This document shows positions 43,403 through 45,754 of a stretch of DNA of 64,000 nt, in pieces. The notes below the pieces were generated by a model. That model ran no database searches. It saw nothing but the letters and a program-made list of their open reading frames with translations, and was not told where the DNA came from. The DNA is taken from assembly GCA_002170395.1 (NCBI GenBank), contig NHEJ01000007.1, forward strand, positions 105,955 through 169,954. Reading direction: 5' to 3'. The first letter of the stretch is position 1, and every line of letters begins with the position of its first letter. This DNA comes from Betaproteobacteria bacterium TMED82. GTDB taxonomy: Bacteria > Pseudomonadota > Gammaproteobacteria > Burkholderiales > Burkholderiaceae_A. The translations under genes and the position numbers were made by a program.

Positions 43403-45754
43403 ATGGCACGTAAGTCTCTTCCAGATTTTACTGCTGATGTATTATCTGACGAGGCCGCAAATATAGAGTCCGTTCGCAAAAGGCTCCTAAGCTATTACAG
43501 AGATCAAAAGTTTAAATATTTTATACCCTCTTCAATTGAATTTATGGAATCATTGAAGTCCTCAGATAAAGGGGACTTTGAAAGTCGCATCTTCTCCCTT
43601 TTTGACAGTTTATCTGGTGAGCTTTTGGGTTTAAGACCCGATATAACTCCGCAAATCGCCCGTATAGATCGGTCAATCAGTCAGGATACAGATGATAAAA
43701 TTCGCAAATATTGTTATGTTGGGTCAATACTACACTCGGTGCCAGCAGGAATGTATTCCTCAAGGGAGCAGTTTCAGATAGGTTGTGAGATTTTTGGGCC
43801 AAAAGACCTTAATTTAGATTTGGAGATTCAGCGTATAGCGGTTAAATCCGTTGAGCTTTTGGGAGTTAATAAGGGTAGCTTTTGTATAACTCATAGAGGA
43901 ATTTTTTTAGCCTTATGTGAAGCGGATGAGTTTTTACGGAGTAATCAATCTCGCGCAATTTCGTTACTTCGCAAAAAGGATAAAATTGCGTTAGGAGTTA
44001 TGGTTTCGAATATGAAGCCGGAAATTGGGGAGGCTCTTTTAAATCTGATTGATCTAAGTGGAAGCGTTTACCAAGATGAAGGTTTGATGCAGGAGGCAAG
44101 AAACAGACTTCCCAAGTTAGATAAAATTGTGAAAGCCTTAAAAGATCTAGATTTCATAATAGATAGGGTGAAAAACTCGCATGGATTTATATCTGACTCG
44201 CACTGGGAGTTACTGCTTGATCTTGCGGATTTGGATGGGTACCAGTATCACACGGGAGTGATGTTTTCAATATTTGTTGGAGGTTGGCATGATGCGATCT
44301 TAAGAGGAGGTCGGTATGATAAGGTCAGGACAATTGTTGGTGACTCACGACCCGGTGTAGGCTTTAGTTTGGAATTGAAACGCTTGAGTAAGTTGGTAAG
44401 CGATCTGCAGTCAAACGAAAAATTTCCTTTGAACTCAGTGTCTATCGAGGATTCAGTGGGAATTGGTAAGTCAATTGTCGTTGTGGGTACGCAGTGGGGA
44501 GATGAGGGTAAAGGTAAGGTAGTAGACTTATTGACTGAAAATGCGCAAGCTGTCGTTAGGTTTCAGGGCGGGCATAATGCTGGTCATACCTTAGTGGCTG
44601 ATGGGAGAAAGACTATTCTAAGCCTTATACCTTCAGGAATTCTCAGGCCTAATGTCAAGTGTTTTATTGGTAATGGTGTAGTAATTTCTCTCAAGGCTCT
44701 AATTGCTGAGATGAAATCCCTAGAGATAATCGGTGTTGATGTGAAGGAAAGACTCAAAATCAGCTGGTTATGTCCACTTGTTTTAGAAACCCACGCGTTG
44801 ATTGATAAAGCAAATGAAATTGCAAAAGGAAAAAACAAAATTGGAACTACTGGGAGAGGGATCGGACCAGCCTACGAGGATAAAATTGCAAGGAGGGCTT
44901 TGCGAATTTCTGATCTTTATGATTTGAGTAGCTTTAAGAAAAAGCTTTATACCTCTATTGATTTTCATGAGTTAGTGTTGAAAAAAATCTATGGGTACGA
45001 TTCCCCTGTTGATAGAGCGCTTATTTTCGACGAGATTGCTGATTTAGCCCCGACTGTGTTAGATTTAGCCGGCGACGTCTCATTAAAATTAATGGAGTCA
45101 TTGAAAAGAAAAGAAAATATTCTTTTCGAGGGAGCGCAAGGTTCGCTTCTTGATATAGATCACGGTACTTATCCATACGTTACCAGTAGTAATTGTGTTG
45201 CAAGTGCCGTTGGTGCTGGAGTCGGTTTGGGTCCTAAATACTTTGGAAATGTTTTAGGTGTGGCAAAAGCTTACGTCACTAGAGTTGGTGAGGGACCATT
45301 TCCTACTGAAATAAATGGTGAGATTGCTAGTCACTTGGCTGAGAAGGGAATGGAATTTGGGTCTGTTACCGGTAGGCCTAGACGTATTGGTTGGTTCGAT
45401 TCCGTTACTATGAGACGTTCAGCGGTAACAAACGGCCTCACGAGTTTATGTATCACTAAGCTAGACGTACTAGATGGATTAGATAAAATCAGGGTTTGTA
45501 CGGGCTATGAATGCGACTCTGACGTTATTAGAGTTATGCCAAGTTTTTCTAGACCCTCTAACTGCAAACCAATTTATGAGGAATTACCAGGTTGGAGCGA
45601 ACAAACTGGAAATGTTGAGTCATGGGAACAATTGCCTTTAAATGCAAAAAATTATTTAAATCGCATTTCTGAATTATGTGAGTTGCCAATATCAATAATA
45701 TCAACCGGACCGGATAGAAAAAATATTATTTTTTTGGAGAAAGTTTTTGTTTGA
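43403..45754 (+). CDS. HisZ-PurA fusion: ATP phosphoribosyltransferase regulatory subunit joined to adenylosuccinate synthetase
   Basis: One 783-codon frame with no internal stop carries two enzymes that are normally separate neighbours. Residues 1 to about 345 are HisZ, a catalytically dead HisRS paralogue that activates the short His[16 protein letters not shown] and [20 protein letters not shown]. Residues 352-783 are a complete PurA (432 residues, the length of the E. coli enzyme): P-loop [52 protein letters not shown] and [12 protein letters not shown]. PurA makes adenylosuccinate from IMP, Asp and GTP. An internal GTG at 44456 follows GAGG by five bases, so PurA may also be made alone. 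It requires a short-form HisG elsewhere. Confidence 0.9.
44447..44458 (+). promoter_or_regulatory. Internal ribosome-binding site and GTG start inside hisZ-purA
   Basis: GAGG (44447-44450), five bases, then in-frame GTG (44456-44458). Translation from here would give a 432-residue PurA starting just before the conserved [11 protein letters not shown]. It may be the old purA start kept after loss of the hisZ stop codon. Confidence 0.5.

Follow-up and report, generated by a model that had tools for sequence, protein, structure and literature searches.

The hisZ and purA genes in the DNA studied here share a single reading frame, and we consider it very probable that they form a genuine translational fusion which arose a single time, in the ancestor of a genus of proteobacteria with small genomes, and which gives one bifunctional HisZ-PurA chain. 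The fused gene, hisZ::purA, lies at 43403..45754 on the + strand of the 64,000-nucleotide stretch that was analysed as a whole (the window), where both the list of open reading frames and the sequence give an ATG that opens a stop-free frame of 783 codons, closed by TGA, and where two family matches are found. What is observed is this open frame, its conservation, the loss of the HisZ tail and of the purA start, two intact domains under purifying selection and the presence of a short HisG. From these observations we infer that the gene yields mainly the intact chain and that both modules are active.

Architecture of the fused gene

The N-terminal part (residues 11-328, 43433..44386, +) matches the Pfam profile tRNA-synt_His (PF13393), the HisZ/HisRS core, with an E value of 4.6e-75; the VGFS motif of the domain is at residues 319-322, and phmmer aligned this part with PDB 5m8h over residues 3-315 of the 388 of that structure. 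Its assignment to HisZ is based on the HisRS-like core fold, followed by PurA instead of the anticodon-binding domain, and on the best PDB sequence matches, which are HisZ chains. As fits a divergent sequence without the tail, this part scores under the curated NCBIfam cut-offs (283.8 bits versus 350 for PRK12292, the best model, and 189.9 versus 271.65 for TIGR00443), which are naming thresholds and neither structural nor functional criteria. Compared with known HisZ proteins (PDB 5m8h, 8oy0, 1z7m), the fused protein has the same HisRS-like core, over residues 6-328, and the same short HisG partner; however, proteobacterial HisZ proteins possess a C-terminal tail of about 60-70 residues, whereas the fused protein lacks it and runs on into PurA.

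The PurA domain (residues 359-776, 44477..45730, +) is complete, as judged from the Pfam match, the motifs and a structure match. Adenylsucc_synt (PF00709) is covered over its full profile, 1-416, with an E value of 1.8e-167; GDEGKGK is found at residues 366-372 and GGHNAGHT at residues 389-396, and the motifs IGTTxRGIGP, VTGRxRR and TKLDV are all present. The curated NCBIfam cut-offs are passed, with 605.1 bits versus 402 for PRK01117 and 531.7 versus 395.55 for TIGR00184. In its full-length domain, motifs and scores this part resembles known PurA proteins (PDB 3ue9, 1ade, 6bs7), but in the fused genus PurA has no free N-terminus, being preceded by HisZ and the linker. No purA match other than the fused copy occurs in the window genome, a draft of 7 contigs that is 85.6% complete.

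The two domains are connected by a joint of 36 codons (residues 323-358, 44369..44476, +), formed by the last HisZ helix and then a disordered stretch, with no in-frame stop. An AlphaFold2 model based on 71 sequences (mean pLDDT 88.9) contains two domains predicted with confidence and, between them, a joint that is disordered, with a helix predicted at 325-338 and pLDDT below 50 over the disordered stretch at 340-353. Foldseek recovered PurA and HisZ crystal structures with this model, with a target TM-score of 0.93 for PurA. The pTM is 0.58 and no confident packing between the domains was predicted, therefore the model does not fix how they are placed relative to each other.

The order of genes in this region is hisS, bamB, der, hflX, hflK, hflC, hisZ::purA, rnr, rlmB. 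The neighbourhood annotation places hflK and hflC at 41114..43378 (+), leaving 24 nt between the end of hflC and the start of the fused gene, while rnr (RNase R) and rlmB follow at 45943..48897 (+). Five of the other loci of the genus (L003-L007) have in common the stretch TGCCCAGAAGAGGACTCGAAC, about 40 nt 3' of the fused gene, which resembles the end of a tRNA on the opposite strand; no tRNA was found at the matching place downstream of the fused gene in the window. Elsewhere in the window, an ORF of 568 amino acids at 54709-56415 (-) matches no NCBIfam model at E 1e-20, and it is possibly not a gene.

Distribution of the fusion

Judged by sequence, the genus has betaproteobacterial relatives, probably Burkholderiales in the GTDB scheme. 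The uninterrupted hisZ::purA frame is present in seven of the eight genomes of the genus, the window's included. The eighth genome (G004) has neither a HisZ nor a PurA match, the locus being missing from the assembly. All eight assemblies are drafts and incomplete, with a completeness of 70-92% and 1.1-1.9 Mb of sequence assembled, and, the window genome being itself a draft in 7 contigs, a sequencing or assembly error could have deleted a stop codon or a frameshift; the probability of such an error is negligible, and we rejected it, since the same open frame is common to six other genomes whose proteins share 51-55% identity with the window protein, with values of 51-54% over the full alignment and 52-55% in the genome search. 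Synonymous divergence of the window species from these congeners is near saturation, with a pS of 0.76-0.85 in both domains, so that the frame must have been open for a long time. As far as sequence comparison can tell, hisZ::purA is a real and old gene fusion in every member of the genus whose assembly holds the locus. The preliminary description had proposed one continuous protein and suggested looking for it in related genomes, where signs of the contrary would be a stop or a frameshift around 44400-44456 or identically placed but separate genes. The frame was found in six of the seven other genomes of the genus, with the linker in frame, and neither sign was encountered within the genus; one continuous protein is thus well supported.

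The joint itself was also considered. Between the motifs it has exactly 36 codons in all seven fused species, so that the distance from VGFS to GDEGKGK is identical, while its sequence is variable. In these species the coding frame of the linker contains no stop and the other two frames contain 1 to 8 each; when the linker nucleotides are shuffled, the probability that four separate lineages are all free of stops is about 1.6e-4. The linker has no indels across the seven species and HisZ and PurA have 4 gap intervals each. It should be noted that the exact length is not, by itself, significant evidence of selection, because each domain as a whole has about 4 gap intervals, and zero indels in 36 columns is then unremarkable.

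Outside the genus, we sampled the order (399 genomes), the class (369) and the phylum (398); the only matches spanning both domains contained stops, although fusions with a long linker could escape this search because the alignment breaks at the linker. Every hisZ-purA pair that was read outside the genus has a stop between the genes and a separate purA start, in agreement with the earlier statement that they are separate neighbours in related bacteria. Some apparent long open frames suggested fusions elsewhere in the order, and these candidates were discarded, as the DNA of the fetched loci contains in-frame stops or frame changes.

Concerning the literature, the preliminary description knew of no HisZ-PurA fusion, and none was found in a full-text search of open-licence publications. 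A survey of his gene fusions reports that hisD, B, N, I, E, F and H underwent fusion, and hisZ and purA are not mentioned (PMC1963479). As in hisIE, hisNB, HIS4 and HIS7, biosynthetic genes are here combined in one chain; the known fusions, however, join enzymes of the histidine pathway, whereas hisZ::purA joins a histidine regulator to a purine enzyme (PMC1963479).

Origin of the fusion and loss of the purA start

In phylogenetic trees of each domain the fused proteins form one group (support 97/94 for PurA and 100/100 for HisZ), therefore a single origin of the fusion, in the ancestor of the genus, is likely. The HisZ of relatives is mostly about 380-407 amino acids long, and what the fused genus lacks is the tail of about 60 residues that follows VGFS in them. 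Such a loss is tolerated, since L. lactis and T. maritima have HisZ proteins that by nature possess no C-terminal domain (PMC10795190). Several other lineages also possess a tail-less HisZ, of 319-327 amino acids, with purA 12-51 nt downstream (L009, L010 and L079-L087, in G014, G026, G416, G312, G393, G255, G283, G385, G304, G558 and G738; L086 and L087 come from the class sample). In these neighbours (for example G014, G416, G393 and G385) the short HisZ stands directly before purA, as in the fused genus, but the stop and the purA start are kept and two proteins result instead of one frame. G014, which belongs to the same family, groups in the trees with its own genus and not with the fused clade. 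The HisZ tail appears to have been lost repeatedly.

Tail loss looks like a repeated first step, with the second step taken in the fused genus only. The dispensable tail would have been lost together with its stop codon and the intergenic gap, and subsequently the start signal of purA would have disappeared, with one bifunctional HisZ-PurA chain as the outcome. The path is legible because several lineages reached the loss of the tail and a gap of 12-51 nt, and the fused genus alone lost the stop and the start.

We also evaluated whether free PurA could still be produced. In relatives with separate genes, the purA start codon, mostly ATG, lies some 12 to 30 residues ahead of the GDEGKGK loop, whereas the six congeners have no ATG, GTG or TTG at a usable place before the first strand of PurA. 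In L003 (G003) the sole GTG is 34 residues upstream; it falls within the last HisZ helix and no ribosome site precedes it. L005, L006 and L007 have a GTG only within the first PurA strand, with one additional TTG without pairing in L006, and in L008 a TTG occurs 43 residues upstream, with no candidate after it. L004 also has a GTG within the first strand, with GGGGGG at long spacing before it, and we judged it an unlikely start because initiation there would delete part of the strand. With no plausible purA start in six of the seven species, PurA would hardly be made in them except through the fusion.

Only in the window species is there a candidate internal start, the GTG of V352 (44456..44458, +), from which a free PurA of 432 amino acids could be translated besides the full fusion. 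It is near the expected place, 14 residues before GDEGKGK, and 5 nt upstream of it a GAGG (44447..44450, +) could act as a weak ribosome-binding site, its predicted anti-SD pairing energy being -5.9 kcal/mol. However, this value, although better than the ORF mean of -3.1, does not reach the 10th percentile of -6.8, and the linker of this species contains 7 in-frame GTG or TTG codons, so that one near a GAGG is unsurprising; moreover, the start has no counterpart in the congeners, and we regard two products in the window species as doubtful, if conceivable. Separate halves may also arise by proteolytic cleavage of the linker. No promoter was predicted on the + strand inside the hisZ part, ahead of purA, and promoter-like sites in this part are fewer than in shuffles.

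Maintenance of both halves and possible roles of the fusion

Both halves look functional, the PurA motifs being intact, HisZ being under strong purifying selection and a short HisG being present. If instead HisZ were decaying, as a mere N-terminal extension riding on PurA, its missing tail and the long stem branch of the HisZ tree (1.18 changes per column) would be expected; but when the three closest species are compared, HisZ has a pN/pS of 0.04-0.08, below the 0.10-0.11 of PurA, and the linker one of 0.23-0.34, and the HisRS-like motifs DITPQ, YHTG and RGGRY are kept in all seven fused species. HisG is moreover encoded as a short frame of 213-234 codons in each of the eight genomes of the genus (220 amino acids in the window genome, where it adjoins hisD), and the short form depends on HisZ both for its full activity and for control by histidine (PMC10795190). 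Decay of HisZ is therefore highly improbable. A separate hisS is present in the window at 35009-36337. The earlier remark that both halves keep their family motifs holds for PurA in the window protein and for HisZ in the seven species. In the fused protein of L008 (G007), GGHNAGHT (from residue 387) reads GGNNAGHT, with Asn for the conserved His, possibly an error because there are ambiguous bases elsewhere in the assembly of this gene.

HisZ activates HisG, and the substrate of PurA is IMP. AICAR is set free by HisF/HisH, and not by HisG as the preliminary description had it, and it reaches IMP via PurH. In the fused chain, the HisZ module would most likely still join the short HisG in the ATP phosphoribosyltransferase holoenzyme and carry histidine control, while the C-terminal module, attached through a flexible stretch of about 18 residues, would be an ordinary PurA making adenylosuccinate from IMP. 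We favour small-genome compaction as the benefit, with two independent activities expressed at a fixed 1:1 ratio and not a dedicated metabolic switch, this explanation being more economical than metabolic coupling.

It is possible that the fusion ties the histidine branch to AMP production. Pathway logic allows it, as HisG uses ATP and AICAR returns to IMP, although to our knowledge HisZ, or HisG with it, and PurA have no intermediate in common. HisZ forms the tetramer core of an octamer with HisG (PMC10795190), and the joint has the same length in seven species even if its sequence is not conserved, which could favour a HisG-HisZ-PurA assembly with mutual regulation of the histidine branch and AMP synthesis, or with a local purine pool used by both. 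However, the missing indels are statistically unremarkable, the model gives low confidence between the domains and the architecture is limited to one genus, so we consider such coupling unlikely. Less likely still would be an obligate super-complex of HisG, HisZ and PurA, where one module responds when the other binds histidine or a nucleotide; the fusion would then be a covalent control point between the histidine and adenine nucleotide pathways.

The fusion has consequences for annotation, since in most of the fused genomes purA has no start of its own and would be misplaced by any gene caller that divided the frame in two. HisZ and PurA are both normally homo-oligomers, so that the way in which the fused chains assemble is of interest in its own right. 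The fusion represents an apparently unreported domain architecture, in which the regulator of one pathway is joined to an enzyme of another.
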